Below, one piece after another: positions 5,275 through 32,568 of a stretch of 33,591 nt of DNA. The notes below the pieces were generated by a model. That model had not been told where the DNA came from. It saw only the letters and a program-made list of their open reading frames with translations, and made no database searches. The position numbers and the translations under genes were made by a program. Each line of letters begins with the position of its first letter. The stretch's first letter is position 1. The DNA lies in assembly GCF_000739695.1 (NCBI RefSeq), contig NZ_BBIO01000023.1, positions 1 to 33,591 of the forward strand, written 5' to 3'. This DNA is from Tepidicaulis marinus (lineage in GTDB: Bacteria; Pseudomonadota; Alphaproteobacteria; Parvibaculales; Parvibaculaceae).

Positions 5275-5323
5275 CGGCAGGAAGCGCCAGCCGCCAGGAT
5301 CCGCTATGCGGATACTTGGCGGC

Positions 5324-16424: not shown

Positions 16425-16894
16425 ACATAGAGATGCCCGCTTCGCGCCGCTCCAATCCCTCTGCTAGCGCGCCTGGTTCGAGCGATGATGTTTCCACCCG
16501 TCCGGGGCCGCGGCGGCGCATGGCCAAGCCGAAGCCCGTTCAGTTCGTTTGTGATGCTGAGTTTGCGAAGGCGCTCAAAGACTACGCGGCAGATGAGAGC
16601 CAGCGCGCTGGACGGAACGTCTCCATGTCGGAAGTGATCCGCCGCGCCCTCGATGCTCATATGGACGCCAAAGAGGGACATTCGGCGTCCATCGAGCCCG
16701 TGTTGTTAGAGGTGGCTTTTCAACTGCGTGCAGCGGGCCGCCTTCTCAACCAGTTCTGCCGCGACCTCTATTTTGACCGCTTTGGCGATGAAACCGTGGA
16801 GCGAATTCCGCTCCGCGATTTCCAGATGATGATGAGCGTCTTTGCCGAGCAGGCCGAACAGGTCGGCAAGATCATCGAGGAGCTGAAGCGCTGA
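16415..16894 (+). CDS. MobC-like relaxosome accessory protein (159 aa)
   Basis: Residues about 37-75 (KPKPVQFVCDAEFAKALKDY ... NVSMSEVIRRALDAHMD) are a ribbon-helix-helix-type DNA-binding region. The C-terminal half (EVAFQLRAAGRLLNQFCRDL ... FAEQAEQVGKIIEELKR) is helical, as in MobC proteins that bind oriT and help the relaxase open the strands. The stop codon shares its last base with the relaxase start (TGATG), the usual MobC-MobA order. The start is uncertain: ATG at 16415 lies in a palindrome, and ATGs at 16433 (MPAS) or before KPKPVQF are possible. The Ser/Pro/Arg-rich N-terminus is probably disordered. Confidence 0.75.
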   Translation: MKNYIEMPASRRSNPSASAPGSSDDVSTRPGPRRRMAKPKPVQFVCDAEFAKALKDYAADESQRAGRNVSMSEVIRRALDAHMDAKEGHSASIEPVLLEVAFQLRAAGRLLNQFCRDLYFDRFGDETVERIPLRDFQMMMSVFAEQAEQVGKIIEELKR

Positions 16895-18660
16895 TGGCAG
16901 ACCTGCGGCATTTGCGCGGATCATGGACCGAAGTCCACCCGGAGGCACATTCGGCCACCCGCTCCTGGTGGGATGACTATAGGCGCGGACGCTACGTCAA
17001 GGACCGGGAAGCTGCGAGCTTCGCGCGCCATTTCCGGGTACGGGCCATGACGGCGGCCGGCGAAATTTCAACGACCTCCGTTCCTGGGCAGAGCCGGGAA
17101 CTGGTCTTGAAAAACATTTCCTGGGGAAAGTCCATCGGCCACGCCTTCCGCTTGATCGAATACCTGTCCCGAGATGGGGCATTTAACGTCACCGATCCGA
17201 ACGACCCCAACATGATCAATGGGGTGCAAGCGCATCTCAGGGTGAAGGAGGAATGGGGCTTGCTCCCCGATGCTCAGAACCTCAAGCCCGAGTTTCAGGA
17301 CAAGCCTTCCTCATACTGGCTTCAGGTGCCCGAAAAGGACCGCCTGCAGAGCAGGCAGTTTCTTCATTCGGTCGTGAGCCTGCCGCCGTCCCTGAACCTC
17401 CCCGATAGATCACCTCTTAGTTCCAGCCAGCCCGACGCTGCCGCCGCTGGCTTTGCCCTTTCCTCTGCTGCCCGGTCCGTTTTCACGGATGCCGGGCATG
17501 ATTTCCTCATGTTCCCGCATCGGGATAAGGGGCACCTTCACTTTCATTTCATCATCCAGGCGAAAAGCAGGACGACCGGCAGGCAACTTCACCTGCAGCG
17601 GTCCCAAACCCAAGCTTTGCGGCAGGAATTTGCGCAGTCGCTTCGGCGCGTTGGCATCGATGTTATCGCAACTGAACGCCGCGACCGTGTTCCCGAGCTG
17701 ACCCAAAGCCCGATCGACAAGGCCATTCACCAGACAATTCAGCGGGGAGATGCCTCCTGGTTTCAGCGCCAGCAAGCCTTGCAGGAGGGCAAGTATCAGC
17801 TGGGAACCTTCGCCCGGAAAGCTCCCGGCTGGCACGCCTCATTTGGCTTGGAATACGAAAAAAGGGTGGCTTTCGATCCGCTGCAAAAAGGGACGGCCGG
17901 GCCCTCTCCACAGTCACCCGCTCAGCGAGGATCTGCTGCACGCAGATTGGCTGAACGTCTTGGCCTCGCTGCCCGTTCCCAGCCGCAAGAGCCGGTTGCC
18001 GCGCCTCTGTCCTCTTTCTTGAAAGACCTTCCGCCGGAAGGCGCGGATCACCTGGCGAAGAAGGCGATTGGGCTCTACCGCGCCCCGGAAAAAGCGCTTC
18101 GCTCTTTTGCGGCGATGTACCAGGAGAACCCGAAAATGGCTGTTTGGGCGCTGAACAGGCGGCCCCTGGCCTTCGGCGATTTGAAAGCGGGGTGGGAAGC
18201 GCCCGACCTGACCAGGCGCGAGCTGAACCCGGCGCCGGCATGGTTCGAAGCGGTCAAAGAAGCCCTGCCCGCTTTCAACACACTCTCCGCTACGGAAAAG
18301 CAGATTGCCCAGGTCCAAGCAGCGGAGGCAACCGAGCAGCGCCAGAACAATCTTGCAACCCGCGCCGCCGAGAGGCTGCAGTTGCGACACAACGCAGCCT
18401 CCGCGCATCTGCTTGGGCTTGCCGAGCGTGTTCGGGAGGAATGGGGGCGCGATCCAAGAGCGGCGAGCTATGCCGCTCAGATAGAGGCCCGCGCCATAGG
18501 CTTGCCGGATGATACGCCCGATCTTAACCGGATGGTTGCCGCCGCCCGCGCCGCCCTCCGTCATGAGGCGGAACAAGCTTCCAGAACACCGGATGCAAAT
18601 AGGGCGATCCAGGCCCGTTTGGCCCAGGATCGCCCGAACGACAAGGATCGGGAGAGGTGA
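16894..18660 (+). CDS. Conjugative relaxase, MOBP/VirD2-like (588 aa)
   Basis: The N-terminal third carries the relaxase motifs: FRLIEYLSRDG (85-95), whose Tyr90 fits the catalytic tyrosine motif of VirD2-like proteins; FLHSVVSLPP (156-165); and the metal-binding FPHRDKGHLHFHFII at about 207-221 with His214, His216 and His218. It nicks oriT, stays covalently attached to the 5' end and pilots the strand into the recipient. The remaining ~350 residues are Ala/Arg/Gln-rich and helical without a recognised primase or helicase domain. They probably bind VirD4 or carry the translocation signal. The gene is coupled to MobC and converges on the lipoprotein gene 20 bases away. Confidence 0.88.
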   Translation: MADLRHLRGSWTEVHPEAHSATRSWWDDYRRGRYVKDREAASFARHFRVRAMTAAGEISTTSVPGQSRELVLKNISWGKSIGHAFRLIEYLSRDGAFNVTDPNDPNMINGVQAHLRVKEEWGLLPDAQNLKPEFQDKPSSYWLQVPEKDRLQSRQFLHSVVSLPPSLNLPDRSPLSSSQPDAAAAGFALSSAARSVFTDAGHDFLMFPHRDKGHLHFHFIIQAKSRTTGRQLHLQRSQTQALRQEFAQSLRRVGIDVIATERRDRVPELTQSPIDKAIHQTIQRGDASWFQRQQALQEGKYQLGTFARKAPGWHASFGLEYEKRVAFDPLQKGTAGPSPQSPAQRGSAARRLAERLGLAARSQPQEPVAAPLSSFLKDLPPEGADHLAKKAIGLYRAPEKALRSFAAMYQENPKMAVWALNRRPLAFGDLKAGWEAPDLTRRELNPAPAWFEAVKEALPAFNTLSATEKQIAQVQAAEATEQRQNNLATRAAERLQLRHNAASAHLLGLAERVREEWGRDPRAASYAAQIEARAIGLPDDTPDLNRMVAAARAALRHEAEQASRTPDANRAIQARLAQDRPNDKDRER

Positions 18661-19160: not shown

Positions 19161-19655
19161 TTATTCATAATGCCGTGTTTTCCATTCTTCCACCAGTTTT
19201 GAGGCTTCCGGCAAAGCCGTTTTTACGCGCGCGGCATATCGTTTCTGAATTTCCGGCCGTGTCGAGTTGTAGAACCCGACAGCCCGCCAAGTGGGGCCGT
19301 GACGATGGATTTCCTGGGCCAGAATCCATGCGCCGGAGTTGACGCAGGAACAGGGATCGTGTGCCAGGTGCGCCTCGGTAATCCCATATTCCTCCAGCTT
19401 GCCCAGCCACCACGAATTGACCTGCATCGCGCAAATGTCTCTAGAGCCATTCGCGTTTCCGTTCCGGGCGCTCATTTTGAGGCGGCTTTCTGCGAGGCCG
19501 ATTGCCACCAGAAGCTCAGGCGCTATCTGGTATCGCTCGCTTGCCTCGAAAAAGCACATAGGCAACCTGGGATCGGCGCATGCAACGCCGATACCCATAA
19601 CGGCCCATACTGAGAGCAGAGCCGCGAGGTTCCTTTTGACCCTGCCCCACATCAT
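19161..19655 (-). CDS. VirB1-like lytic transglycosylase (164 aa)
   Basis: The ATG at 19655 overlaps the virD4 stop codon (ATGA). The signal peptide (RNLAALLSVWAVMGIGVACA) is followed by a slt domain: APELLVAIGLAESRLKMSAR with the catalytic Glu in AESR, then ICAMQVNSWW and VGFYNST. These enzymes open peptidoglycan for assembly of the transfer channel in the periplasm. VirB1 is usually the first gene of the virB operon; here it stands near the end, after virD4. Four Cys in the mature part (MCFF, ICAM, DPCSC) suggest disulfides. Confidence 0.85.
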   Translation of the reverse strand: MMWGRVKRNLAALLSVWAVMGIGVACADPRLPMCFFEASERYQIAPELLVAIGLAESRLKMSARNGNANGSRDICAMQVNSWWLGKLEEYGITEAHLAHDPCSCVNSGAWILAQEIHRHGPTWRAVGFYNSTRPEIQKRYAARVKTALPEASKLVEEWKTRHYE

Positions 19656-21337
19656 GCCGGCAAGCTCAGACGTTTGCGCAACGTTCGATCTCGATAAGCC
19701 AATACCGTGTCGCACCATACCGGCTTATGGTGATGATTCTGCACTAGAAGAATGTTCTTGCCCGATGGGATCGCGCCGATTTCGTTGGGCTTCATCAGAG
19801 CTATGGCCTCCCAGCTCGATGACACGCTTCCTTTCAGAGTAAGGCCGCGCTGCATCGAGTTCGATTTGCGCTTGCGCGTTTGCTCGCCGATCATTCTTGA
19901 AATCTTGTCCCGCGTTTCCGGGCTGTTCTGCGAGAACACCGTCAAATAGGAGGCCGTGTTGATGAAGGTCTCAAGACCGTCTGCCCCGTATTTCTCGCGG
20001 AGCTGACTGAAATCCTGCAGAACGGCCATACAATGGACCCTCATGCTGCGGCCAAACTCGAAAATGCGCTTGATCGTGTCCGACTTCGGCAGCTGCGCCA
20101 TCTCTTCGATGAGAAACAGCACCGAGTTCGCCTTGCTCTCTGGTTTGGCCGACATGAGATTGTCGGCCAGGGTGTTTACCAGCAGCCCCGTGATAGGCGA
20201 TAGAGCGGCTGCTTCATCGGGCCTCATCGAGACGTAGATGGTTGCGGGTTTTCCATTTCTCAGATCATCGGCCTGAAAGGAACAATCGCTTGTAGCCTCT
20301 CTCACCGAGCTGTTTTTAAACATGCTCAGTGCGGTTGTGAGGCTAGCGAAATGGCTCGCGCGTTCCTTGAAGTTCATGCGCGCCATCTCCATGAAGCCTT
20401 CCTGGACCCTGCGCGGCAGCCCTAAATCTTCGGCGTCATGGGCCGAGAGAATAAGCAGCGCGCCCACGGGGTCTGTCACCTCGATCTCTTCACCGCCGAC
20501 CGAAATCGTCTCGCCCTCTGCCGGGCCTGACGCGGCCCAGGTGAGCACGTCACCCATACACGCATCACGCCCCTCTTTCTCCGCCTTGCCGATCAAATAG
20601 AGCAAGACACTCGACATGAAGGCGCGCGGCGCGTCATCGAAATACGGGTTGGCGCTGTTCTCACGTCGCGGAATGAGGGTGGCCGCGATATTGTCGATCC
20701 GGATTTCCAAAGAGGCTTGATCCTTTGGAAGGGCCGCCCTTGCAATCGGATTGAATTTCGCGCCTTCGGCTCGCCAATCCACCCGGTAGACGGGGCCCAG
20801 CTTCTTTCGCCAGCCAGCCGTCATCTCCCATAGCTCGTTTTTGGGGTCCGCAATGACGAGGCTGCCGGGATAGCTCAGAATCACGGGCACCACCCGCCCA
20901 ATTGTCTTGCCGGACCCGGCCGGCCCGGCCGTGATTTCGCTTCGGGTTTCCTTGCGCACATCCGCGATGAGTTTCTTGCCGCTGGCCCGGCCGAGCAGCA
21001 GGCCCTTTCTGGCCGTGATCCCCATTCGCCCGAAATCGCCCCGCTTCGCCCAGCGGGCGATGCCGTAGCGGGTGTTAGAGAATGAGTATGGGGACCATAG
21101 GAAGGCGGCAAAGACGCTCAGCGGTATCAAAGCGAAACTCGCCAGCATCGCTTGTGATTCCCATGTCCAGTTGCCTGTTCGGATGGTGAACCAGGTCAGT
21201 TCACCCACCCATGCCCAATGGTCTTGTCGAAGTCCATTGAAGCCTGTGAGAAGCCACGCCGATGCGCCTGAAAGGACCGTTCCGGCGGATACAAATGCAA
21301 TCATCCAGCCCTGGGCTTTCTGTTCCTCACGCTGCAT
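19652..21337 (-). CDS. virD4: Type IV coupling protein VirD4
   Basis: 561 residues. The two N-terminal membrane spans are at about 11-32 and 63-82. The Walker A box GPAGSGKT is at 138-145 and Walker B in VLFLIEEMAQLP, with MAVLQDFSQLREKYG (the sensor region) further on. It is a hexameric inner-membrane ATPase that receives the relaxosome and hands it to the VirB channel. I chose the ATG at 21337, which overlaps the virB11 stop by 11 bases; a frame extending to 21415 lies inside virB11. The C-terminus is short and lacks an all-alpha insertion that I could identify. Confidence 0.93.
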   Translation of the reverse strand: MQREEQKAQGWMIAFVSAGTVLSGASAWLLTGFNGLRQDHWAWVGELTWFTIRTGNWTWESQAMLASFALIPLSVFAAFLWSPYSFSNTRYGIARWAKRGDFGRMGITARKGLLLGRASGKKLIADVRKETRSEITAGPAGSGKTIGRVVPVILSYPGSLVIADPKNELWEMTAGWRKKLGPVYRVDWRAEGAKFNPIARAALPKDQASLEIRIDNIAATLIPRRENSANPYFDDAPRAFMSSVLLYLIGKAEKEGRDACMGDVLTWAASGPAEGETISVGGEEIEVTDPVGALLILSAHDAEDLGLPRRVQEGFMEMARMNFKERASHFASLTTALSMFKNSSVREATSDCSFQADDLRNGKPATIYVSMRPDEAAALSPITGLLVNTLADNLMSAKPESKANSVLFLIEEMAQLPKSDTIKRIFEFGRSMRVHCMAVLQDFSQLREKYGADGLETFINTASYLTVFSQNSPETRDKISRMIGEQTRKRKSNSMQRGLTLKGSVSSSWEAIALMKPNEIGAIPSGKNILLVQNHHHKPVWCDTVLAYRDRTLRKRLSLPA

Positions 21338-22253
21338 TGCGTTTTTCCTCACGTTTTTCTGCAAGATCGAGGACTTCCAGCACCCGCCGCTCGCCGGTTT
21401 CATGGGAGCGCCCAACCTGCAGGATTATGTCGATCTGGCTTTCTAGAAATTCGATGACGGAGTCATTGGGGCGGTTCGCCATGCCGATCATTGTCTTGAT
21501 TGCGTGCATTGCTGCGCGCGGATCATCAGCGTGAAGCGTCGCCATGAATCCGCGGTGCCCGGTATTCAAAAGGCGAACGACCGACCAGGAATTATCAATG
21601 CGAAGCTCGCCAGTAATAATTCGGTCAGGACGCATCCGCATCGCAATATCCATGACGCTGGCGTAGTCCCCGCCTCCTTCATCGTCATAGCCTTCAAAAA
21701 CCGAATACTGCGTGAGGTTTTTGTGCGGCATGTCGATCAGCTCGCGCACATCCTCAACTGTGATCAACCGTTCATGGATTGGAATATCCTTCGTCATGCG
21801 GCGCAGAAGCGTTGTCTTGCCGCTCGATGTACCGCCAGAAATCAGAATGTTGCTGCCACAGCGAACCGCGTCCTGAACGCGGCTTGCGAGCGTTGCATCC
21901 ATTCCGAAATCTGAATATTCGATAGAAACCGGCCGGAAAAGACGAATGGCAACGGCCACCCGTTCTTGAACGGCTGGCCCTATTGAAAAGGCGGCGCGGT
22001 GTCCCCCATCCAGCATCACTGAGAGATGCGGATAAAGATCACCGAAGGGCCGCCTTTCCCGGTTTGCAAGAGCCGATGCCAAATCGCGCCAATAGGCTTC
22101 CGTCAGGGCTTTATCATCCACAAGACGGGGGGACGTTGCCCCCCGCTTGTAGAGCATGATTTCACCTGGCCGACAGGCAACGATTTCCTCAACATCGGAC
22201 TGATTCAGGTATTTCTGAATCTTCCCGAGATATGCAGAAACAACGCCGGTCAT
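21327..22253 (-). CDS. virB11: VirB11 secretion ATPase
   Basis: 308 residues from the ATG at 22253, 8 bases after the stop of the cysteine-repeat gene. Walker A GGTSSGKTT is at 140-148, the Asp box LITVEDVREL follows, Walker B is IITGELR and the His box is GHRGFMATLHADD. This is the hexameric cytoplasmic traffic ATPase that switches VirB4 between pilus assembly and DNA transfer. A longer frame upstream (to 22493) overlaps the preceding gene and has no similarity. Length and motifs are normal. Confidence 0.93.
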   Translation of the reverse strand: MTGVVSAYLGKIQKYLNQSDVEEIVACRPGEIMLYKRGATSPRLVDDKALTEAYWRDLASALANRERRPFGDLYPHLSVMLDGGHRAAFSIGPAVQERVAVAIRLFRPVSIEYSDFGMDATLASRVQDAVRCGSNILISGGTSSGKTTLLRRMTKDIPIHERLITVEDVRELIDMPHKNLTQYSVFEGYDDEGGGDYASVMDIAMRMRPDRIITGELRIDNSWSVVRLLNTGHRGFMATLHADDPRAAMHAIKTMIGMANRPNDSVIEFLESQIDIILQVGRSHETGERRVLEVLDLAEKREEKRNAA

Positions 22254-22261: not shown

Positions 22262-24400
22262 CTATTGCACAACGGGGCAAAAATACGTTGCCCGGACGAA
22301 CGGTGATCCCTGATTTGTCCAGGCTCCATACTGCTTGCTCCCATCCGGCAGCTGTGTGACCTGTCGGCTCTGATTGCGGTCGAAATGAGTCATTCTCAGC
22401 GCATATGAGAGCGTTATACACGCACTGTAGGAGCTGAGGCCGGTCACTTGGCGCGAAGACGGCAGATAGTCCCAGAACTGATTGTATGGACAACTATTGG
22501 GGTGTGATGAGCATCCGGCCCCAAAATAATAACCACGTTGACGGCTGTCTTCAGAGTCCCATTGCGTATATGCATAAATCGTCCGGTTCTCGCTTGAATA
22601 AGTGCACCCGTTGGTAGGTCCTTGGCTCGCCCCTGCCCCGTTTGCATAAATGGCTTCGGAACCATCAGGCCGCCGATAGATGGATGACCTGTCAGTCAGC
22701 TTATAGACGTTGCAGCCCACGTATTCTTCCTGGCCGTTGAGCACATCGGCATTGCGGACAAACACGTAGGGCACCGGAGATTCGTTCTCATTCACGGCAG
22801 GGCTTCCGACATTGACCCGCCCTTCCGGGCCGTCAATATAGGTCTGCGCGACCGGCAAGGCCGAGCGCGCGGCATCGTCGTTCTCCCAGCCGACCTGTTC
22901 CAGATTATGACCTGCCGTCTCACCCGTGCGTTCGCACGAAGTGAGATAGGAACGGACCCCATCAGGCTCGTAGAAAAAGCGATGGTGAATGTAGCTGAGG
23001 CCCGCCGCCAAATCGTGGTCAAACTGCCCTTCGCAGCCCATCCGCGTCTTGGTGACGCCGAGCTCAACTCCTGGCAAGCAGCCAGAAATGTGCTGCGGCG
23101 ACCCGTTTACAGTAATGAATTTCCTGCCCTGGCGGATCACCACACCCTGCTCCGCATTGTAAGCGTCTTCACAGACGCCATAATCCATTTGCATCGCATA
23201 AGTCGTGGGCGAATCCACGCAGCCGGCCACATTGCGCTCTACACCCTCGTCGTCGGTATAGATCGCCCGGTGCTGCTGCGTCGAAAGGTCATCATCGAAA
23301 TCATGCCGGATCGAGCAACCGTCCGTGGTGAATGTCACCGGGAAGGTTTCTTCGGTCGGCAGGCAGGGAGCAACAACAGTCCGGCGTTCCCGATCATCAT
23401 AATAGACCGTTTCGGCCTGCACGGTCGCGCTTAGCTGCTCCAAGCTCGTGAGGATCGGGCACGCGTTCTTTTCTTCCACAAGCTGGTAAAAAAGATATTC
23501 ACCCGTCACATCCACATACCGCTCGCAGTCCGTCACGAAGGTATTGTTGCCCTGCCAGGTGTAATATTTCCGCGCTTCTTGATAGGCCCTTCCCTCTTCC
23601 CTCGCGACGGCGACAGAGCAGCCTTCCCGTGTGGTCTTAAGGGGTAGGCGCTGGCTCGTGTCGGAGCACTCGCTGCGTTCGCTTTCAACTCCGTCAACCA
23701 GCGTGATCAAGCGGCCTTGGACAATGGCGACACCCTCCGTTTCAGAAACGCGGGGTTCGCACCCCTCAAACGTCTCTGTCACAGAAGTCTGCTGTTCGGG
23801 TTCCTTGACGACCTCCGGCGGTTGAAAATTAGCAAGCTGGTCGTTTCCGCCTTCGCCTGTTTTGCCGGAACCGCCAAGGCTATCGCCGTCTTGTCCGTCT
23901 TCGCCGTCTTCCCCTTCATCGTCTTCTTCCGGCTTGGGCAGCTTTTCAAGCATCGCCATTGCGTCTTCAATCGCTTCGGGAAACTTACCGGCGACAGGCA
24001 CCGGATACCCCTTCTGCACTTCGTTAGCATTGGGGTCGAATTGCGTCGAAAGCGGGAACCGCAGGCGTTCAGGCGGAAGGTCCGCACCCTCCACCATGAG
24101 CGCGGTCCACTCCACAGACCATGCCCCGCCCTGCCCTGTCCGGTTGGGCTGAGCGGTGCCAATCATGCGGACCCGCTTCATCGCCTGGCCGCCGACGCCA
24201 TCCGCAATATCCTGGAAGAAGGAAGTCGCCCGCGCCGGACCTTCCACCGGAAGATTATCGGCAAGCCGCACCTCACCATTGTCCACGGTCTCAGTCGAAT
24301 AATCTTGTACCGAACCCGGAAGCTTTGGCGCTTCCTGAGCTGTCGCCCCGAGGGGAAAAATCAGCATTCCTGCAAAGAAAATAGCCTTGAGCATACGCAT
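22262..24400 (-). CDS. Secreted cysteine-repeat protein inserted in the virB operon (712 aa)
   Basis: The signal peptide MRMLKAIFFAGMLIFPLGATAQ is followed by an N-terminal domain (about 25-155) and an acidic Gly/Asp/Glu linker (157-205). Then come six tandem modules of about 48 residues. Each has two Cys: 214/245, 261/292, 314/346, 362/394, 410/441, 456/489, so 31-33 residues apart and 15-22 between modules. The C-terminal domain (500-712) has six more Cys (563, 599, 630, 637, 661, 708) and is Tyr/Ser/Asn rich. All 18 Cys could form disulfides, pointing to an extracytoplasmic, probably surface-exposed rod. It lies between virB10 (5-base gap) and virB11 (8-base gap), so it is co-expressed with the channel. 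No standard P-type component fits. A mating-pair adhesin or stabiliser, analogous to cysteine-rich TraN of F-type systems, is my best guess. Confidence 0.8.
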   Translation of the reverse strand: MRMLKAIFFAGMLIFPLGATAQEAPKLPGSVQDYSTETVDNGEVRLADNLPVEGPARATSFFQDIADGVGGQAMKRVRMIGTAQPNRTGQGGAWSVEWTALMVEGADLPPERLRFPLSTQFDPNANEVQKGYPVPVAGKFPEAIEDAMAMLEKLPKPEEDDEGEDGEDGQDGDSLGGSGKTGEGGNDQLANFQPPEVVKEPEQQTSVTETFEGCEPRVSETEGVAIVQGRLITLVDGVESERSECSDTSQRLPLKTTREGCSVAVAREEGRAYQEARKYYTWQGNNTFVTDCERYVDVTGEYLFYQLVEEKNACPILTSLEQLSATVQAETVYYDDRERRTVVAPCLPTEETFPVTFTTDGCSIRHDFDDDLSTQQHRAIYTDDEGVERNVAGCVDSPTTYAMQMDYGVCEDAYNAEQGVVIRQGRKFITVNGSPQHISGCLPGVELGVTKTRMGCEGQFDHDLAAGLSYIHHRFFYEPDGVRSYLTSCERTGETAGHNLEQVGWENDDAARSALPVAQTYIDGPEGRVNVGSPAVNENESPVPYVFVRNADVLNGQEEYVGCNVYKLTDRSSIYRRPDGSEAIYANGAGASQGPTNGCTYSSENRTIYAYTQWDSEDSRQRGYYFGAGCSSHPNSCPYNQFWDYLPSSRQVTGLSSYSACITLSYALRMTHFDRNQSRQVTQLPDGSKQYGAWTNQGSPFVRATYFCPVVQ

Positions 24401-24405: not shown

Positions 24406-25740
24406 TTACTCCTTCTTTGCGCCCGCCTGGGCAGATCGAGCCGCAAGAATGCGCGGCTCGGTAATGGCAATGTCGTAGAGGGGTTTGATAAGAATCCGCT
24501 CACCAGCTGCGATGCTCACAACCGGCGCAAGGTCGATCTGCTTTTCCAGCACCTGGGCGGTCACTTGCCCGAGGTTCTGGCTAAACTGATCGGAGGCTTG
24601 GGATATATTCTCGTCCTGAGCGGAGGATGAGGCCGCAACAATTGCCGCGCTCAGCAGCGTGGTAATGAAGGCCGTTCCGTACTTCTCCCAGGTCCGGTTA
24701 TCGAGATCGCCGATGAGCCCGTTCCGGCCCATCGCATCCCCGCCCAAACCTTCAAATGAAATTGACGCTCCATCCGGGCGGAGAAGCCGGGTCCATTTTA
24801 CTTCAAGGCGGCTATCCCCGGTTTGCTCAAGCGGCTTATACTCGCCGATCAGCTGCGTACCCTTCGGAAGCAGCTTGAGACGGCCATCCCCGCCGAAAAC
24901 GTGTTCATCAACCGTTGCCAGGACCCAGCCGCCGATTTGGGTATTAATCGGCGTCCTAAGCACCGCCCAGATTATCTTGTCTTGAGTGATGCGCCGCGTC
25001 CTATCGACCGGCAAGGTCGATTCATCCTCACGCAGCGCCCCATAATCGTCATCCGTCAGCTCGTATCTATCGGGGTCAGTTTCGGGCAGCGAAATATTTC
25101 GCTGCTCCAGCACACCCTCACGGACGAAACCAGGCCCGCCATTGGCTCTACCCGCCAAAACCTGCGCGCGCCATTCGGCCCACGACAGGTAGGTTTTGTC
25201 TGGTTCGGGCGGCGCGGGCGGCGGCGCAGGCGGCGGGGTATAGGGTGCGAGCACGTCAGCGCGAAGCCGAACCGTCTTCGGCCTGCCGTCAAACTGCAGC
25301 TCTAACGAGCCCCGGCTTGTGCCGGCATCGATCCCGCTGAACGTCACGACGATTTCGCACTCCCCGCCTTCCTCAAGGACCGAGGGGCACAAATCGGTCA
25401 TGGCGAACCCTTCTGTGCCGTGCAGCTCCACCTTGCTTAGCTCGGATGCGCCCGGTCCCTCGTTACGGATGCGCAAGACCCCCTCGCCTTCCGTTTGGCC
25501 CTGGCCGAGATCGATGGGAGGCAACGCGAGCTGCTTATCAAGCACGATACGCGGAGGATCTGCTTTCGGAGGATCGCCCAGGTCGAAATAGCCTGGCGGT
25601 AATGGCGGCGGCTGCCGTACCGCCGGACTCGACGGCTCAGACGGCCCGCTCGCAAGCTGCCGAACTGCCACCAATCCGAGGATCGCCGTAACGGCTACGC
25701 CTGCTACAGCTGCCCCAACGATTTTCGGATTGACCGCCAT
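24406..25740 (-). CDS. virB10: VirB10 channel protein with an extra Ig-like domain
   Basis: 444 residues. The N-terminal anchor is at about 8-27 and Pro-rich segments at 40-62 and 168-180. The conserved C-terminal VirB10/TrbI domain spans about 200-435 (IIWAVLRTPINTQIGGWVLA, LLPKGTQLIGEYKP, LGGDAMGRNGLIGDLDNRTW, then the antenna-like AFITTLLSAAIVAASSS). It spans both membranes in the core complex. Unusual is residues about 70-163, an Ig-like beta module (IDLGQG, LRIRNEGPGASELS, FAMTDLCPSVLEEGGECEIV, VTFSGIDAGTSRGSLEL) that resembles ASH/choice-of-anchor-D domains. Its Cys118 and Cys128 could pair. The start shares a base with the virB9 stop (TAATG). Confidence 0.9.
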   Translation of the reverse strand: MAVNPKIVGAAVAGVAVTAILGLVAVRQLASGPSEPSSPAVRQPPPLPPGYFDLGDPPKADPPRIVLDKQLALPPIDLGQGQTEGEGVLRIRNEGPGASELSKVELHGTEGFAMTDLCPSVLEEGGECEIVVTFSGIDAGTSRGSLELQFDGRPKTVRLRADVLAPYTPPPAPPPAPPEPDKTYLSWAEWRAQVLAGRANGGPGFVREGVLEQRNISLPETDPDRYELTDDDYGALREDESTLPVDRTRRITQDKIIWAVLRTPINTQIGGWVLATVDEHVFGGDGRLKLLPKGTQLIGEYKPLEQTGDSRLEVKWTRLLRPDGASISFEGLGGDAMGRNGLIGDLDNRTWEKYGTAFITTLLSAAIVAASSSAQDENISQASDQFSQNLGQVTAQVLEKQIDLAPVVSIAAGERILIKPLYDIAITEPRILAARSAQAGAKKE

Positions 25741-26768
25741 TATGCCCCCTCAGCCTGCGCAGGCGCGCGCGGCTCGTCAGGCTTTTCGGTTCCGACGAGC
25801 TGCCCGCCTGTTTCCCGCTCGATAGCGAAAGGCTCGGTCGGCTCGATGCAAACGACCCGCTGGCCGTTTTTCAACGTCAGCCGCCCGATGGACTCAATGG
25901 CCATGACGGTTTTGCCCATCCGGAAATTGGCCGGCGTATCTATTTCGTCGATAATCTTGAAGGGAACGGGCAAGTCCACTTGGTCGAAACGCTCCGGTTT
26001 CCAGTATAGGAACGTCCAGACCCCATCAGTAAAAACGGTGTCGGGCGCAATGCTCCTGTCGCCATACATCCGGTAGTCGAAGCTCACCTTTGACGCATCA
26101 AAGGGAATGCCTTCGAGGAAATCCGGGTTCAGTTCCCCGGTGCTGCCCCGCCCTTCGAAGCTTCCCTTTACAATGCCCCCGGCATCGCTCACCGCTTCCC
26201 GCTTGCGCTCTTCCGCTTCCCTATCCTCAACCTGTTTCGGGGGAAGCGGCGCAATGCCTGTGTCGAAGACGAGCACGGCCATATCGGGAACCGTGGGAGA
26301 GTCGACAGGGAGCGCGCGGACATAGAACGTGAACACACGCCCGAACTCATCCATAACGATTAAATTGCTATCCACCCCGGCGACTTGCGGCCAAATATCA
26401 AGGTAGCTGTTGCCGTTCTCATGACGCATTCCGAACAGCGCAGCATCACCTACGGCGGCCTCTTTGATTTCCCCAGGCAGCTTTACGCGCGTCACCATGT
26501 GCCGGCGCACATTGATCTTCATCATCAGGTGCTCGGAATAGGCGAAACGCCTTATTCCGGCTTCCGGCGGCGCGTCGTCAAATGCCTCTTGAACCTGGTC
26601 CAAGACTTCAATCTTGGAGGCGTTCTTTGCGCCCTCGATGCGCGGCGGCTCGAAGCCGTTTGCACCCGGCAATGCTTCTGCTGCCCATTCATCATCCAGA
26701 GCGAGGGCAGGACACGAGCCCATTGTCAGGGCCGCAAGCGCCCCCACGATCCATAATTTACCGTTCAC
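25740..26768 (-). CDS. virB9: VirB9 outer-membrane core protein
   Basis: 342 residues starting with GTG at 26768, which has AAGGAGG 6 bases upstream. A frame running to 26816 lies inside virB8. The signal peptide ends at about CPALA. VirB9/CagX features are FAYSEHLMMKINVRRHMVTR, LPGEIKEAAVGD, NLIVMDEFGRVFTFYVRAL in the N-terminal domain and FDYRMYGD, IAPDTVFTDGVWTFL in the C-terminal domain. With VirB7 and VirB10 it forms the outer-membrane core complex. A charged linker of about 25 residues (KQVEDREAEERKREAVSDAG) separates the domains. Confidence 0.9.
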   Translation of the reverse strand: MNGKLWIVGALAALTMGSCPALALDDEWAAEALPGANGFEPPRIEGAKNASKIEVLDQVQEAFDDAPPEAGIRRFAYSEHLMMKINVRRHMVTRVKLPGEIKEAAVGDAALFGMRHENGNSYLDIWPQVAGVDSNLIVMDEFGRVFTFYVRALPVDSPTVPDMAVLVFDTGIAPLPPKQVEDREAEERKREAVSDAGGIVKGSFEGRGSTGELNPDFLEGIPFDASKVSFDYRMYGDRSIAPDTVFTDGVWTFLYWKPERFDQVDLPVPFKIIDEIDTPANFRMGKTVMAIESIGRLTLKNGQRVVCIEPTEPFAIERETGGQLVGTEKPDEPRAPAQAEGA

Positions 26769-27447
26769 TTTCCGCCTCCTTGTCCGCCCGCTCGTCACGC
26801 GCCAGGCTGTAGACATCTACAAACAGCCCGAACGGGTTCGTCAGCTTGTGCTCATCGGTTACTTTCTGGGGATGAAACGAGACGGTCATGCTCGCCACCC
26901 AGGTTTCGCTTTTTTCCAGACGGTCTAACCGCCGGTCCATTCTTGAGAAGGTCACTTGGTAGCGGCGACCGCGCTCGATCACATCGACACGCTCAACAGA
27001 AATATCCCGCGTAAGGCCGCGCTCCTTCATCACATCGTAAGGGCTGTCCCCGTTTGGCGGTTTGACCATGAAGCCCCAGAAGTCTTTCCAGACTTGCGGC
27101 GAACTCATGTATTCGACGCTTCCCCACCGTTCGGCTTCGGTCACAAGATCAATGCGCTCCCGCGCGATCACGTACCGTCTCAGAGCACTTTCAACCGCCA
27201 AATCGAAAGCTGATGCCCTTGGGGAGATCGGCTCTACCGTCCACACAACGTCACTTCGCCCGTCCGCACGGACAAGAAAGACCTCAGTCGATTTCAGGGG
27301 AAGAAGCCCATAGAGCGCCAACGCCATGACGACGATGATTGCCGCCAGCACGCCAGTCACCAGGGCCAAAAGGCGGTTTGTATAAACCGCCATTCTGTAG
27401 CCCTGTCCGTTTTGGACGATGCGCGGATTGTGGCTCAGCTCGTCCAT
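26758..27447 (-). CDS. virB8: VirB8 inner-membrane assembly protein
   Basis: 229 residues with a short cytoplasmic N-terminus, one span at about 27-50 (LALVTGVLAAIIVVMALALY) and a periplasmic NTF2-like domain (ESALRRYVIARERIDLVTEA, then VEYMSSPQVWKDFWGF; later TNPFGLFVDVYSLARDE). It nucleates VirB channel assembly at the inner membrane. It starts inside the end of the VirB7-like gene and overlaps the virB9 start by 11 bases. The C-terminal pattern NPFGL..D.Y matches the family. Confidence 0.9.
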   Translation of the reverse strand: MDELSHNPRIVQNGQGYRMAVYTNRLLALVTGVLAAIIVVMALALYGLLPLKSTEVFLVRADGRSDVVWTVEPISPRASAFDLAVESALRRYVIARERIDLVTEAERWGSVEYMSSPQVWKDFWGFMVKPPNGDSPYDVMKERGLTRDISVERVDVIERGRRYQVTFSRMDRRLDRLEKSETWVASMTVSFHPQKVTDEHKLTNPFGLFVDVYSLARDERADKEAESER

Positions 27448-27599
27448 TGATCGAGCCCATCCGCGTCATAAATCAGATCGCAGGCGCAATCTGATTTTTT
27501 CAGCTCGTTCGTATCGGAGCCGATGCCCTGCCGGTCATCCAGGTGCTCGCACCCGGCCACCAGAAAGGCCATCAGCATCGTTGTAATCAGCCCCTTCAT
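27435..27599 (-). CDS. virB7: VirB7-like lipoprotein (54 aa)
   Basis: Starts with the ATG at 27599, with GGAGG 8 bases upstream. The signal peptide MKGLITTMLMAFLVAGC ends in a lipobox (VAGC, Cys17). The short mature part (EHLDDRQGIGSDTNELKKSD, then CACD) has two more Cys. Size, lipobox and position before virB8 fit VirB7, the outer-membrane lipoprotein that pairs with VirB9. The sequence itself is too short for a firm family match. It overlaps virB8 by 13 bases. Confidence 0.75.
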   Translation of the reverse strand: MKGLITTMLMAFLVAGCEHLDDRQGIGSDTNELKKSDCACDLIYDADGLDQWTS

Positions 27600-27619: not shown

Positions 27620-28642
27620 TTACGGGTTCGGCCCGCCCCACCCGATCTTGCGGCGGGCAAGGTCCGCCCCCGCCCGCGCGCCTGCGCGAAGTCCCTCGCC
27701 GCCCTTGCGTCCTGCGGCTTTGGCACCCGAAAGCGCCTTCGCTGCCGCAAAACCGCCGGCACCGAGCAGGGCTTGAGATGCGATTTGAGAATCGAGCACA
27801 CCAGCAACGGATGTGGCCATTTGGCGGGCAATGATGTGAAAGAGAACGGAAAGGCAGCCGATGAGGACCATGGCGAAGTAGTCGCCGCTCCAAAAGAAGC
27901 GTTCCACTTCCTCATATGTGGGTGGGTTTGGAAGAACGCCCACATATTCCTTGATGACGGCAATGGTGAAGCCCATCGCGACTGCCATGAACAAGATGCC
28001 GGTGATCCCTGAAAAGAAAATGCGCATGGAATCCCGCGCAAACCCCTTCGTCGCATTGAACAGCAACGCACCCACCACAAATGGGCCGATGGCGGTAATT
28101 GCCATAAACTTGAAAATCGCTTCGAGCAGAAAACCGACGAAAAGGAACCATGCGAAAAGAAACGGGATGATGAGAAAAAGAGACCCGAATGACGCCGAGA
28201 ATTGCCCGACAATGCCAGCGCCATTTATGGCAATGCGCGCAATTTTCAGAACAACGAACACTTCCTTTTCGACCGCATCAATAAGCTCAGGAAACCCGCT
28301 GGCGCTCACCTCTCCGGATAGTGCCGCGATCTTTACGGCAACACCGGTAACACTGTCCCTGGCTGGAAACACGATCCATTCCATCCAGAGAGCACCCGTG
28401 TTGAGGAACAGCCCTGCCACGACGAAGAGAGCCAGCTTGGAGCCTACTTCGTAAGGGCTCCCTTGCCCTTTCGTGATGAGCTGAATGCTGAAAAAAATGA
28501 GATACGCGATCATGAAACCGTTGAGCCACAAGGCGACCGTGCCGCTCGTGGCGTCAAAGGCTTCACGCGCAAAACTCAGGCTTAGCGTGTCGAGCGTTTC
28601 GAACATCCCACACGCAATGCAGCTAACCGCTCCGGTACTCAT
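27620..28642 (-). CDS. virB6: VirB6 polytopic inner-membrane channel protein
   Basis: 340 residues with at least five hydrophobic spans (about 35-55, 70-87, 150-175, 175-195, 210-232, 255-272). The conserved TrbL/VirB6 segment (IPFLFAWFLFVGFLLEAIFK, then FMAITAIGPFVVGALLF) is present, followed by a hydrophilic Gly/Ala/Lys-rich C-terminus (GAKAAGRKGGEGLRAGARAG). It is part of the inner-membrane path of the substrate. The start overlaps the virB5 stop codon (ATGA). Confidence 0.88.
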   Translation of the reverse strand: MSTGAVSCIACGMFETLDTLSLSFAREAFDATSGTVALWLNGFMIAYLIFFSIQLITKGQGSPYEVGSKLALFVVAGLFLNTGALWMEWIVFPARDSVTGVAVKIAALSGEVSASGFPELIDAVEKEVFVVLKIARIAINGAGIVGQFSASFGSLFLIIPFLFAWFLFVGFLLEAIFKFMAITAIGPFVVGALLFNATKGFARDSMRIFFSGITGILFMAVAMGFTIAVIKEYVGVLPNPPTYEEVERFFWSGDYFAMVLIGCLSVLFHIIARQMATSVAGVLDSQIASQALLGAGGFAAAKALSGAKAAGRKGGEGLRAGARAGADLARRKIGWGGPNP

Positions 28643-29475
28643 CTATCGCCCAATTCTCGAAGGTCTCGGGATTCCTTGGCGAACAACTTGAGCGACGGTG
28701 CGCTTTCGATATTCCGTGCCGCATCCATGGCCACCTTGTCCGCCATCAGCCCATTGAGGCGGACTAGCTCGGCCAGAACCGCCAGCTGTATCTCATTCTG
28801 CGCAGCTATCTGGGCGCGCAACGTATTTGCGCTCGATGCCGTCGAAGAAAGGCTACTGAACAGCTCTGCACTGGACCGTGCATCGCCCTTGCTGGCGAGC
28901 CCGTTTGCGAGGGCCGAATCCGTGAGCGTTGCAGACAGCCGGAACCTCGCTTCTCGGGCCCGGTCACGGTCGGCAATCATTTCTTCACGGCTCATGCCGT
29001 TGCTGGCGCGCAGCTCATCTGCAATGTCACCGGCCCGAACATCCAGGGCCTCGACACTGTATAAAGCCTCAGAAATGAACTCTTTCGCCTGCCCGGCATT
29101 GACGATCACATCCGTCATATTCTCGCCGCCCGGCAATTCAATGTTCTCAAGATCAACGGTAAGACTGTTCGCGACCCGGCCGACCTGTTCGGCTAGGCCG
29201 CCGACCGCGCGCAGCGCAATGAGCCCTTCCGAGCCCATCAAGCCGTTCAGCTTTTTGGCCTCGTTCACCTGCTCTTGCATTTTCTCCACTTGATCGGAGA
29301 GGGCGGTGAGCTGCTGTACGAGCGTGACGAAAGACGTGGGATCGTGAACGATCATGGCCGAATATGCCTGATAGCTTCCGCCCATCACGCCGGCCACGAT
29401 GCCAGCGACCAGAGCCGCACGGCGCCAGCCCTTCCCGACCGTCAAATCCTGTCGTTTAAGAACATATCGAGCCAT
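28639..29475 (-). CDS. virB5: VirB5-like minor pilin/periplasmic protein
   Basis: 278 residues. A basic N-terminus and hydrophobic segment at about 19-40 (RAALVAGIVAGVMGGSYQAY) act as signal or anchor. The mature part is almost entirely helical and heptad-like (FVTLVQQLTALSDQVEKMQE, QVNEAKKLNGLMGS, later LRAQIAAQNEIQLAVLAELV), the typical VirB5/TrbJ pattern. VirB5 sits at the pilus tip and helps host recognition. The start at 29475 has GGCGGAG upstream and overlaps the virB4 end by 34 bases. Confidence 0.8.
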   Translation of the reverse strand: MARYVLKRQDLTVGKGWRRAALVAGIVAGVMGGSYQAYSAMIVHDPTSFVTLVQQLTALSDQVEKMQEQVNEAKKLNGLMGSEGLIALRAVGGLAEQVGRVANSLTVDLENIELPGGENMTDVIVNAGQAKEFISEALYSVEALDVRAGDIADELRASNGMSREEMIADRDRAREARFRLSATLTDSALANGLASKGDARSSAELFSSLSSTASSANTLRAQIAAQNEIQLAVLAELVRLNGLMADKVAMDAARNIESAPSLKLFAKESRDLRELGDR

Positions 29476-31835
29476 TTTTCTCCGCCTTTCCGCTGTGCTG
29501 CGGCAACCGCCCGTGAGGCTTGGGAGCCCCCCGTCAGAGACCGCAAAAGATTGCCGAGAGATGACAGGTCAGCGTTCAAGATGACGCTTCCCGTGTCACT
29601 TTTGATGAGCACCGCACGGGGGTACGCTGCCGCAACATCGCTGGTGCCTTTGATGAACTGCCATTCGGAATCCGTCAGATCGAATTCTTCGAAATCGGCT
29701 TTTTGCGCCTGAGTATTTCGGAAGAAAATCCGCTTGGATGTATTCTGCAGGAACGCTTTCGCGTGACCGCTGGCGGTCAACGCGCCCGGGTCCTGGAATG
29801 CCAGCCCGAGCACGCCCTGTTTCTTTCGCGCTTCACGCAAAATCACTAGCAGCTCGGACGCGAACCGCTTGTTTTCGAGCATTGGCGCTGCCTCATCGAC
29901 CATGATGAGGTGTGGTGTATCCGAGCGCCGGATGCGGTAGGCGATATATGAAATCATCGCGGCGGCCCGGTCGCCCGAATCCAAAATATCTGTCATGTCG
30001 AAGGCAACCAGGCGCTTGCCGTCGAAGGACAAGCTGTCTTCCGCTCCATTGAACAGATAAGCGTTGCTGCCCTCCGCCCAGGTGCGCAGCCCGTCTTTTA
30101 CCTCAGACCCGGCTGGAAACAGCTCTTCGAAGGATGCCTTCAAGCTCCGGCCCGCTGTCGGTACTTGCATGAGCATCCCAACGGCCTGCTCAATATGCTT
30201 TTGGCTTTCGGTCCCCTCGGTTCCCGCGAGAAGCGTTAGCCAGTTCGTGAGGAAGGCCAAGTTTGCCTGGGACGGCTCCAGATGGAACGGATTCAAGCTC
30301 AAATCCAAGGCCGGATCGACATATTCGAACCCGTGCACCTGGCAATACGCACGAAAGCCTTCGTTTCGGTCGAATAGAAAGGCTTTCAGATCGGGGAACG
30401 CCTCAAGCGCGCCCAGAATCCAGAACGCCATGAGAGTCGATTTACCGGCCCCCGTGCCGCCGAATACCAGGAAATGCCCAAGCTCCTGCTCACCGGCCCC
30501 GCGATGAAAATTGAAGCGGTATGCCGACCCCTGCGAAGTCGGCATTAACCGCACATATCCCTCGCCCCAATCGCAAGAGCCGATCCCGTCAGCCTGGCTT
30601 TCCATTACCCAAAGATCGGCCACGTTCTCCGCATCGAGCCGGAACGGACGATGCAGCACATCGAGGCCGGGCACCCGCGTCCACCACATCCGTTCGGCTG
30701 AGGCCGTCTCAACCTTGGCATTGATGTTGTGATTGCCGAGCACGCGCATGACCTGCCCGCAGCCGCGCTGAACTTCTTCTTCCGAGTTTCCCTCGACAAT
30801 CACCATTAGCTGATGATCCAGAAGCGTTGATTGCCCGCCCCCTACCCTGTCGGCGGCTTCCTCAAGCTCCTCGGCGGCGAACCGCCCTCCGAACATTGCC
30901 CGCGTCTGGCGCAACCGGAAGGCAAGTTCGCCTTGCGCCTTCGTTGATGGGATCGGTTTTACGATCTGCACCACAGACAGTTCCGCGTCTGCGGCCATAA
31001 GGCCGCTCACGACGCTTGAACTTGTGGCTTCCGGCCAGCCCCGAATGCCGATCATCGCTTGATGCCGCGCGCTGAACGGCGTTTCCAGGCGTATAGCCCC
31101 GCTCCGGTCGATGATTGCGCTGCAATCCACGACCTGCTGCGCCAGCTCGGCCTCTGACGGGTGAAAGTCACCCGCCATTCGCCCGTTCACGACGCCGTAA
31201 AGAAACCGCTCAAGCTCATGTGCCCGCGTGCCGCTGTGCTGCACGGCCGGGCTCCACTCGCTCAGCCGGTCCCGCACCAAACGCTCAACATTGTCGAGGG
31301 CTTCGCGCCGCTTCGCGTCATAGCCGCTTACGCTCACTACGATGAAATGGAGGTTGGCAAAGGACCGCTCGAACTGCTTCGCCCATTTCGAGCTGATCTC
31401 TGCCGCGATGCTTCCGGTCGCCTCGCTTCCCAGGTTCGCCCGGAAGTGCCGCCGCATCGTGACGAAGCGGACAAAGACGGGTTCCGGGTTCAGTGCATCA
31501 AGAAACGACTTCCGCCTGGCCCAGAACGCCTGGACCTCATCAGCCGTCAACCCGTCACCGGCAATGCCTGTGACCGCGAAGACCCGGAAATGCGACCCGT
31601 CTTTGCATTCTACCGTCTTGTCATCCGGCAGAACGCGCAAAAAGGGGATGAAATCGGAATAGGAATTCTCCGGCGTTTTCCCAAACACCGTGTCGCGCAG
31701 GCTTTCCACTGTCGCAAGGGCGACCGCCCCAGCCGTTGCGGCCCCCGCTCCGGCGAAGGCAAGGACGGTCCCCATGCCTGCGTTCTTGGCGTGAACGCCG
31801 GCATCGAACAAGCTTGCGAATTCTGGCCCGCTCAT
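29442..31835 (-). CDS. virB4: VirB4 secretion ATPase
   Basis: 797 residues. Walker A GGTGAGKST is at 459-467, followed by ILGALEAFPDLKAFLFDRN. Walker B lies in PHLIMVDEAAPML, then LVILREARKKQGVLGLAFQD and the TSKRIFFRN region. It is the large inner-membrane ATPase driving pilin dislocation and substrate transfer. The N-terminus holds a hydrophobic stretch at about 22-42 (GTVLAFAGAGAATAGAVALA), as in some VirB4 proteins. virB3 is a separate gene 2 bases upstream. The start at 31835 has GAGGG 6 bases before it. Confidence 0.93.
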   Translation of the reverse strand: MSGPEFASLFDAGVHAKNAGMGTVLAFAGAGAATAGAVALATVESLRDTVFGKTPENSYSDFIPFLRVLPDDKTVECKDGSHFRVFAVTGIAGDGLTADEVQAFWARRKSFLDALNPEPVFVRFVTMRRHFRANLGSEATGSIAAEISSKWAKQFERSFANLHFIVVSVSGYDAKRREALDNVERLVRDRLSEWSPAVQHSGTRAHELERFLYGVVNGRMAGDFHPSEAELAQQVVDCSAIIDRSGAIRLETPFSARHQAMIGIRGWPEATSSSVVSGLMAADAELSVVQIVKPIPSTKAQGELAFRLRQTRAMFGGRFAAEELEEAADRVGGGQSTLLDHQLMVIVEGNSEEEVQRGCGQVMRVLGNHNINAKVETASAERMWWTRVPGLDVLHRPFRLDAENVADLWVMESQADGIGSCDWGEGYVRLMPTSQGSAYRFNFHRGAGEQELGHFLVFGGTGAGKSTLMAFWILGALEAFPDLKAFLFDRNEGFRAYCQVHGFEYVDPALDLSLNPFHLEPSQANLAFLTNWLTLLAGTEGTESQKHIEQAVGMLMQVPTAGRSLKASFEELFPAGSEVKDGLRTWAEGSNAYLFNGAEDSLSFDGKRLVAFDMTDILDSGDRAAAMISYIAYRIRRSDTPHLIMVDEAAPMLENKRFASELLVILREARKKQGVLGLAFQDPGALTASGHAKAFLQNTSKRIFFRNTQAQKADFEEFDLTDSEWQFIKGTSDVAAAYPRAVLIKSDTGSVILNADLSSLGNLLRSLTGGSQASRAVAAAQRKGGEKWLDMFLNDRI

Positions 31836-31837: not shown

Positions 31838-32128
31838 TTATCCCTCATACATCTGGCCGCTTACCGGCCAGAACGTTTTTCGGCGGCGGAGTTGGAAGTG
31901 ACCCAGCTTCCAACCGCCGATTACGATTGTGTCGAAGTGAGGTTCTTTCTGGAGATACCGATGGGCGAACACGTAGCCGATGGCGACGGCAATGCCGCCC
32001 AGCAATGCTTGTTCCCCTGTAATGAGGTAGGCCAGCACCCCGACCGTCATCACAATGCCCCACATGTAGATTGTGAGACCCAGCATCGTGAGAGGCTTTG
32101 CGACGGCTCGAAGTACGGGGGCTGCCAT
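31838..32128 (-). CDS. virB3: VirB3 inner-membrane protein (96 aa)
   Basis: Starts MAAPVLRAVAKPLTMLG, the usual VirB3 entry, and has a hydrophobic hairpin at about 16-58 (LTIYMWGIVMTVGVLAYLIT, then ALLGGIAVAIGYVFA). The C-terminus is amphipathic (YLQKEPHFDTIVIGGWKLGH). It works with VirB4 in the inner membrane. An upstream extension to 32212 lies within virB2 and is not used. Confidence 0.88.
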   Translation of the reverse strand: MAAPVLRAVAKPLTMLGLTIYMWGIVMTVGVLAYLITGEQALLGGIAVAIGYVFAHRYLQKEPHFDTIVIGGWKLGHFQLRRRKTFWPVSGQMYEG

Positions 32129-32141
32129 GATCCTGAACCCC

Positions 32142-32444
32142 TTAGCTGCCGCCAGCGGCGAGCCAGCCGATAATCGGCTCGGCCAAAAACAAACCGATGG
32201 TGCCCATGGCAATCCCGCCGAACCAATGCCAGGCGATCCGGCCAGTCATCGAGAGCACCAAGGCGAAGACTGCGAATAGCAAGGCAATCCGCTGCCCCCA
32301 CTTGAGCATCACCTGGATGAATTCGTCGGTCTTGCTAACGAGCGGCGAAGCAATGTCATCCGCAGACTGGGCCAAGCTGGGCTCAACCCATAACGCTGCA
32401 GCGACACCGCAGACCACCAGCCCCAAAAGAAGGTTTCTTCGCAT
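32142..32444 (-). CDS. virB2: VirB2 major pilin (100 aa)
   Basis: ATG at 32444 with GGAGG 7 bases upstream. The long signal peptide ends at about SLA-Q (residues 1-25). The mature pilin of about 75 residues has two hydrophobic helices (RIALLFAVFALVLSMTG and GGIAMGTIGLFLAEPIIGWL) joined by a short basic loop (RIAWHWF), the classic VirB2 hairpin. It is the first gene of the transfer operon. The divergent control region lies upstream (32445-32568). Confidence 0.88.
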   Translation of the reverse strand: MRRNLLLGLVVCGVAAALWVEPSLAQSADDIASPLVSKTDEFIQVMLKWGQRIALLFAVFALVLSMTGRIAWHWFGGIAMGTIGLFLAEPIIGWLAAGGS

Positions 32445-32568
32445 CGTTTGCCTCCAAGATGCTGTCATTACGAAACTGCAGCACTTTCGCGCAAAACTGT
32501 TTACGAAATACAAACAGAAAGGGAGTTACGTAAGAAACAAACAAGGGGAGAAAAAGCGAGGTGAAGAA
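32445..32568. promoter_or_regulatory. Divergent control region of the virB operon
   Basis: It contains three TTACG words in different contexts (attacgaaac at about 32468, tttacgaaat at about 32500, gttacgtaag at 32525) and the operator ACTTTCG-N14-CGAAA (32483-32508). Its repeat spacing equals that of the one at 12391-12418. No clean -35/-10 pair is visible for either direction, which suggests activator-dependent or tightly repressed transcription. Confidence 0.5.
32521..32533. repeat. Direct repeat GGGAGTTACGTAA, copy 1
   Basis: The 13-base word GGGAGTTACGTAA occurs here, 36 bases before the RHH-like gene at 32569, and again at 33253-33265 before the gene at 33270. In the second copy the core is the perfect palindrome GTTACGTAAC. 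Confidence 0.6.

Follow-up and report, generated by a model that had tools for sequence, protein, structure and literature searches.

The gene named X in this work encodes a protein of 712 aa with a repeat stalk. The protein is probably an adhesin for mating-pair contact (recipient recognition), dedicated to one subset of P-type (VirB-like) conjugation systems and equipped with an exchangeable tip. X was found in the window (the whole stretch of Tepidicaulis marinus DNA that was analysed, 33 591 nt). Recipient recognition was considered the best explanation because a cysteine-rich stalk, predicted to be secreted, occupies a fixed place in the operon and ends in a region that recombines and is apparently matched to the host. 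A previous sequence-only reading of the window had proposed a recipient-binding or pilus-associated adhesin linked to the T4SS. That proposal was partly supported: the linkage to virB10 and virB11 and the recombining, apparently host-tracking tip speak for it, while export, surface display, association with the pilus and disulfides inside the modules stand as predictions.

Gene order of the window operon

The operon is P-type (VirB/VirD4) and runs from VirB2-like to VirB11 with the addition of VirD4, the assignments of VirB3 and VirB5 being weak (Table 1). Gene X is separated from virB10 by 5 bases and from virB11 by 8 bases, as the sequence-only reading had described; ORF, Pfam and TIGR02788 positions agreed on this arrangement. 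In the window VirB10, residues 75–151 (25288–25518) matched NF012200, the model of a domain of the choice-of-anchor D type, at E 2e-7, which falls short of the curated cut-off; the same model was matched by two of the 13 VirB10 proteins from X systems. Cargo genes of the window included those for a Gp49-like (DUF891) protein (9057–9413), a Fic/DOC protein (10196–10918), an SRAP protein (4459–5535) and an SNase (13797–14348).

Table 1. Positions of the conjugation genes of the window and of the parts of protein X
Feature	Position	Strand	Evidence
relaxase (MobA/VirD2-like)	16894..18660	+	PF03432, E 3e-8
virB1-like lytic transglycosylase	19161..19718	-	PF01464, E 3e-11
virD4 coupling protein	19652..21415	-	PF02534, E 6e-60; true start perhaps further in
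virB11 ATPase	21327..22253	-	TIGR02788, E 1e-53; ATG at 22253
X gene, 712-aa predicted secreted repeat protein	22262..24400	-	ORF; ATG start, TAG stop; same-place homologs elsewhere
virB10 (TrbI)	24406..25740	-	PF03743, E 7e-38
virB9 (CagX)	25740..26816	-	PF03524, E 3e-18
virB8	26758..27447	-	PF04335, E 3e-29
candidate virB7 lipoprotein	27435..27599	-	ORF scan; lipobox VAGC
virB6	27620..28642	-	PF04610, E 5e-8
virB5-like	28639..29475	-	PF07996, E 0.0098, weak, below cut-off; same-place homologs
virB4	29442..31835	-	TIGR00929, E 3e-102
virB3-like and virB2-like (TrbC pilin) genes	31838..32513	-	PF05101, E 0.006 (below cut-off); PF04956, E 1.5e-6
X residues 1–21, predicted signal peptide	24338..24400	-	by inspection; cleavage MRMLKAIFFAGMLIFPLGATA/QE
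X residues 22–150, N-terminal domain, proposed docking base	23951..24337	-	beta-rich in L034 homolog model; low confidence in window protein
X residues 151–205, acidic flexible linker	23786..23950	-	sequence; pLDDT <50 at residues 153–201
X residues 206–497, six two-Cys beta modules	22910..23785	-	module HMM, two Cys each; pLDDT ~90
X residues 498–576, post-module beta domain	22673..22909	-	seen across family alignment; pLDDT 82–94
X residues 577–712, RPDG hinge and C-terminal tip	22265..22672	-	tips recombine and appear to track host

Distribution of the X family

Window X had no match in Pfam or NCBIfam searched to E 0.1, in PHROGs to E 1 or in PADLOC to E 0.01, and these searches assigned it to none of the known families of enzymes or cytoplasmic proteins. 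The Pfam matches of its homologs (DUF7523 0.053, PKD 0.025, DUF883 0.076 and CfaA_B_C 0.16, among others) all lay below the cut-offs. X represents an unannotated family, labelled ‘hypothetical protein’ wherever it has been annotated on plasmids.

The family was found at 48 places, nearly all of them alphaproteobacterial: three in the window genome, 13 on plasmid records, 13 in other genomes and 19 on genome contigs. This count includes the near-copies L043/L050, L041/L042 and L045/L046, and excludes a second place in each of the H4 and H5 records. The sequence-only reading had held that known P-type systems lack such a part, which proved wrong for the subset represented by these places. The plasmid places came from a tblastn search of 72 556 PLSDB records, 13 of which carried relatives, and the 19 contig loci from a scan of genome contigs. 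The two further copies in the window genome were located on contigs C22 and C46. By profile search, X was present in 3 of 61 relatives, 11 of 385 class genomes and 4 of 398 phylum genomes, each count including the window's own genome. The X of Rhodobiaceae bacterium UBA4490 (L033) was the same as that of a same-genus genome (G001).

Outside the Alphaproteobacteria, X was carried by plasmids of both Nitrosospira and Desulfovibrio. The 5.5-kb contig L041, which bears the label Colwellia, encoded an X identical at 738 of 756 residues to that of a Rhodospirillaceae locus (L042), and its label is perhaps a binning error. The family also occurs on pMSR-1, a plasmid of Magnetospirillum gryphiswaldense MSR-1. 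Broken copies were seen at L025 and on plasmid unnamed2 of Roseibium aggregatum S1616 (L065). No relatives of the three tips searched (window, L009 and L040) were detected in the phage collection, and IMG/VR likewise gave none when scanned with the window tip or alignment A2.

Linkage of X to virB10 and virB11

The sequence-only reading had proposed a survey of the gene between virB10 and virB11, and this revealed near-absolute linkage. VirB10 was the upstream T4SS neighbour of X in all 45 places where this side was in view (it was out of view at L014, L066 and L067), and VirB11 came next downstream in 44 of 45 (out of view at L023, L026 and L065). The exception was L024, where X was followed by VirD4. 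At this place (L024/L068, a 1.34-Mb contig), X was 501 aa long with four module matches, and the VirB11 profile was silent over the 18 kb examined.

The gap between virB10 and X was 218–925 bases in three Novispirillum places, and in L045/L046 an extra ORF of ~250 codons lay within it (3759–4683 in L045). These two scaffolds of Novispirillum itersonii ATCC 12639 matched exactly from the first base to the end of the X stop codon, after which they diverged within a few bases, the VirB11 proteins beyond this point being 85 % identical; they represent either two elements with one half in common or an assembly fork.

Between X and virB11, the arrangement ranged from an overlap to a gap of 111 bases in loci that were scanned or had an annotated start. 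This bears on a highly improbable alternative, that of X as an effector or polymorphic toxin with a conserved carrier and an exchangeable C-terminal toxin. Polymorphic (CDI-type) toxins possess a signal, a repeat stalk and a variable C-terminus, and the signal peptide, repeats and ~130-aa variable C-terminus of X recall such contact-dependent toxins. However, the 8 bases in the window and the short intervals in these other loci leave no space for an immunity gene, and no toxin domain was detected with Pfam or PHROGs (window X and 10 homologs) or with PADLOC (window X only).

Systems lacking X were examined as controls by searching 190 class genomes with a VirB10 profile built from X systems, which matched in 44 genomes. 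Among 30 control VirB10 loci, six had X after VirB10, 19 had VirB11 directly after it with no X and five did not show VirB11. The top profile scores belonged to X systems, with the exception of two G108 systems that scored below three X-less loci. A tree was built from 47 VirB11 rows, of which 28 had X and 19 did not; its deep forks were open and the window formed a long branch. The X label required two changes on this tree, against 15.0 for shuffled labels, and none of 500 shuffles went as low. By these relationships, X marks a subset of P-type systems. The two changes may represent either one gain and one loss or two gains.

Domain organization and cysteine pattern

The signal peptide and acidic linker of the sequence-only reading were borne out, the former by a signal-like start seen by eye and the latter by the acidic character of residues ~151–205. 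A simple signal-peptide proxy was passed by 29 of the 34 family members. The cysteine pattern had been reported exactly: window X contains 18 Cys, all after residue 210 (the first at residue 214), with spacings of 31, 31, 32, 32, 31 and 33 inside the six modules, and a module HMM also finds six. The Cys-rich C-terminal part that had been noted corresponds to the remaining six Cys, at residues 563–708. There were seven neighbouring Cys pairs 30–34 residues apart; when 18 Cys were placed at random over residues 210–712, only 3 of 100 000 trials did as well, and the periodicity is not due to chance.

Iterated searching with the module HMM gave 225 matches in 34 X proteins, ranging from four to 15 per protein, with six in 18 proteins including window X and the highest numbers in Insolitispirillum (15) and Novispirillum DSM 11590 (12). 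Both Cys were present in all 216 matches of at least 36 aa, a count biased towards two Cys since the HMM was built from the window modules; their spacing was 30–32 in 175 of the 216 and 27–36 overall. Nine shorter matches were dropped from this count, of which seven carry no Cys or one. Pairing within modules is the simplest reading, because the modules at either end of the array retain both Cys as well. The odd Cys total of 16 of the 34 proteins (signal peptide counted) weighs against such pairing and against the adhesin model.

In the AlphaFold2 model of window X, the 10-residue mean pLDDT was 82–95 over residues 211–590 and below 50 in most of the N-terminal part and the tip. The model of a Thalassospira homolog (L034) gave ~89 for the N-domain (residues 51–160) and 37–85 from residue 611 onward. 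The modules were modelled as small beta units whose best structural matches, all weak, were single propeller blades: Foldseek searches (PDB and viral models) and VIA-align (PDB) returned blade-like local matches only, none with Z of at least 5, a result that does not in itself prove a novel fold. These WD40-like beta-propeller matches reached E 1e-5 with a TM of 0.04, and VIA Z scores of at most 3.7 over 41 residues. The variation in module number from four to 15 argues against one closed propeller ring. Sequence searches gave no relative of known structure below E 0.38, and the failure of these searches to reveal a structural relative counts against the adhesin reading. The Azospirillum X (378 aa, with four module matches, two of them partial, and neither N-domain nor tip) also misfits the full adhesin model.

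A terminal Trp, often as Gly-Trp, is shared by many X proteins whose tips differ (L005, L006, L008, L017, L021, L034, L037–L040, L045–L048 and L051). The glycine-rich C-terminal part of the Desulfovibrio X (L009, residues 554–718) matched phrog_4474, of unknown function, at E 3e-11.

Recombination of the tip

Seven Thalassospira-type loci were compared (L034–L039 and L044, of which L039 is labelled only Rhodospirillales; L052, with short flanks, was left out). Mean pairwise identities over aligned residues were 95.6 % for VirB4, 87.4 % for VirB5, 92.0 % for VirB6, 94.2 % for VirB8, 90.7 % for VirB9, 91.0 % for VirB10, 96.4 % for VirB11 and 92.7 % for VirD4. The X body had a mean of 90.6 % and the X tip 50.8 % (range 29.1–97.4 %), compared with 81–99 % for individual pairs of the other T4SS proteins.

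Tip classes do not track the X body. For example, L034 and L035 were 92.5 % identical in the body and 34.7 % in the tip, and L035 and L044 were 90.4 and 94.1 % identical, respectively. At the DNA level, identity between L034 and L035 was 74–94 % over virB10 and the X body, 35–60 % over ~500 bp of tip and 79–93 % over virB11. A similar drop was seen for L034/L039, and none across the tips of L035/L044 and L034/L038. Synonymous divergence was decisive. For L034/L037, dS was 0.36 in the body and saturated in the tip (tip dN 0.30), and for L035/L044 it was 0.79 in the body and 0.32 in the tip (tip dN 0.039); by these values, the tip has its own genealogy. L035/L036 gave a dS of 0.40 in the body and 0.10 in the tip. 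The synonymous divergence shows that tips have been exchanged by recombination and are not merely fast-evolving. Beyond these loci, the Roseibium plasmids ZYF612 p2 and RF14 were 69 % identical in the modules and 27 % in the tip, and two Novispirillum X proteins were 67 and 39 % identical, respectively.

A distinctly unlikely alternative is that X is a structural extension of the core complex with an invariant role, its tip being simply unconstrained. Its constant presence in the operon and conserved body would suit such a part. Within tip classes, however, dN was far below dS (L035/L044, and L034/L038 with a tip dN of 0.032 and dS of 0.86), though the L034/L037 tips differ more.

The tip recombination would look the same if X were a structural part of the outer-membrane core, or of the base of the pilus, that is exposed at the surface and evades plasmid-dependent phages or grazers by varying its tip; the place of X next to virB10 fits a core part of this kind. 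Such escape is considered unlikely; in the comparison of VirB4, VirB5, VirB6, VirB8, VirB9, VirB10, VirB11 and VirD4, VirB9 did not show such variation (87–96 % identity).

No silent tip cassettes were found in the flanks searched (about 10 kb at most). In the window genome, tip sequence was confined to the three X genes, and the window tip had no match among plasmids at E up to 0.01. All 52 tblastn tip matches outside the tabulated X genes lay within other X gene loci (L059–L062, L065 and L067).

Association of the tip with the host

The systems of window X and of the copies on C22 and C46 differ greatly although they share one genome, with identities of 33–35 % for VirB10 and 30–31 % for VirB11. 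The X proteins were 22–23 % identical in the N-domain and 32–33 % in the modules, compared with 54 % (global), 56 % (local) and 59–61 % (core) in the tips. Among all pairs with 25–50 % module identity, the tip score had a median of 88.8 bits over the 20 pairs from one genus, against 22.7 bits over 466 others. A stricter set of 32 proteins, from which rows with a self-assigned genus (L039, L052 and L033) and tips shorter than 100 aa (L009, L010, L011 and L026) had been dropped, gave a median of 90.5 bits over its 15 same-genus pairs. The 406 different-genus pairs had a median of 22.3 bits and a maximum of 63.2 bits, and this maximum exceeded the scores of three of the 15 same-genus pairs. When genus labels were shuffled over 24 body clusters, 0 of 2000 shuffles reached the observed difference, a signal contributed by just two genera, Thalassospira and that of the window.

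Judged from these comparisons, the tip appears to track the host rather than the transfer machine, which fits recipient recognition. Neither of the two alternatives raised for the recombining tip accounts for this pattern: escape from phages or grazers alone does not predict similar tips on very different machines in one host, and an unconstrained tip would not remain similar between such systems. A further possibility, that X is a surface-exclusion factor blocking mating between donors with the same system, is extremely improbable. The host association, the encoding by the element and the probable surface location of X agree with such a factor, but exclusion should differ between systems that share a host, and in the window genome tips resemble one another across strongly diverged systems.

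Proposed role

As a recipient-recognition adhesin, X would be exported by Sec and oxidized in the periplasm, where its N-domain may dock on the outer-membrane core formed by VirB7, VirB9 and VirB10. Each module would be clamped by its own disulfide, the modules would stack into a rod whose length could be altered through module duplication, and the C-terminal tip would be displayed outside to bind a receptor on the recipient surface. Since the tip lies between the conserved RPDG hinge and the conserved virB11, it could be replaced by homologous recombination, by which the plasmid would be re-aimed. We lean slightly towards a broader proposal, in which X is the hitherto unrecognized recipient-choice module of an entire branch within the P-type systems, a rod of paired cysteines with variable length; swaps of a ~400–500 bp tip cassette between plasmids would re-aim the host range, and the resemblance to F-type TraN would be convergent and not one of descent. 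The operon also encodes a VirB5-like protein, the known candidate for a tip adhesin, and its presence counts against X as the adhesin. Nothing describing X was found among the matches listed from open-licence PubMed Central papers.

Recipient choice by P-type systems is poorly understood, and X, if the proposal is true, is a dedicated, modular and experimentally separable part of it. The family is present in environmental bacteria, including on the plasmid of the well-studied M. gryphiswaldense MSR-1, and the natural tip alleles on close Thalassospira-type machines are ready-made matched pairs for the study of specificity. The host preference of a plasmid could become readable from its tip sequence.

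Comparison with known systems

X differs from polymorphic (CDI-type) toxins in lacking room for an immunity gene and a detectable toxin domain. The C-termini of PilV are exchanged by a shufflon. PilV of IncI-type plasmids is an adhesin of the type IV pilus and gives conjugation its specificity (PMC9045228). X belongs with a different pilus class, and no silent cassettes of its tips were found in the flanks searched.

Recipient contact is attributed to VirB5 and KikA-Pep, as surface or pilus-tip factors, in P-type systems and to TraN in F-type systems in parts of PMC12624023, and sections of PMC12857230 also name VirB5 and KikA-Pep for P-type systems. X resembles these P-type proteins as a proposed surface factor for recipient contact. 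It is a separate protein, additional to VirB5, and in loci whose X tips are as little as 29 % identical VirB5 keeps 81–96 % identity.

The parallel with F-type TraN drawn in the sequence-only reading holds as an analogy and fails as a relationship. PF06986 (TraN) had no match in window X (E up to 0.1) or in 10 homologs (E up to 1), and matched in five of 96 class genomes, the window genome not being among them. Homology was rejected on this basis and on hhalign, in which 18 X proteins compared with four of six TraN proteins, all alphaproteobacterial, gave a probability of 0.04 % and E 0.89. The layouts also differ. X has another Cys pattern, a linear array of four to 15 modules with the tip at the C-terminus, and a gene between virB10 and virB11 in a P-type operon; the C-terminal domain of TraN, by contrast, is a separate one that folds back on the N-terminal domain (PMC9246713). 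Which receptor and which recipient species are used depends on the TraN tip, and specificity is reversed when tips are swapped (PMC9246713 and PMC13104618). The likeness between the two proteins is thus one of analogy only, with no detectable sequence relationship: X, like TraN, is Cys-rich, encoded in a conjugation operon and predicted to be secreted, and combines a conserved base with a variable tip.
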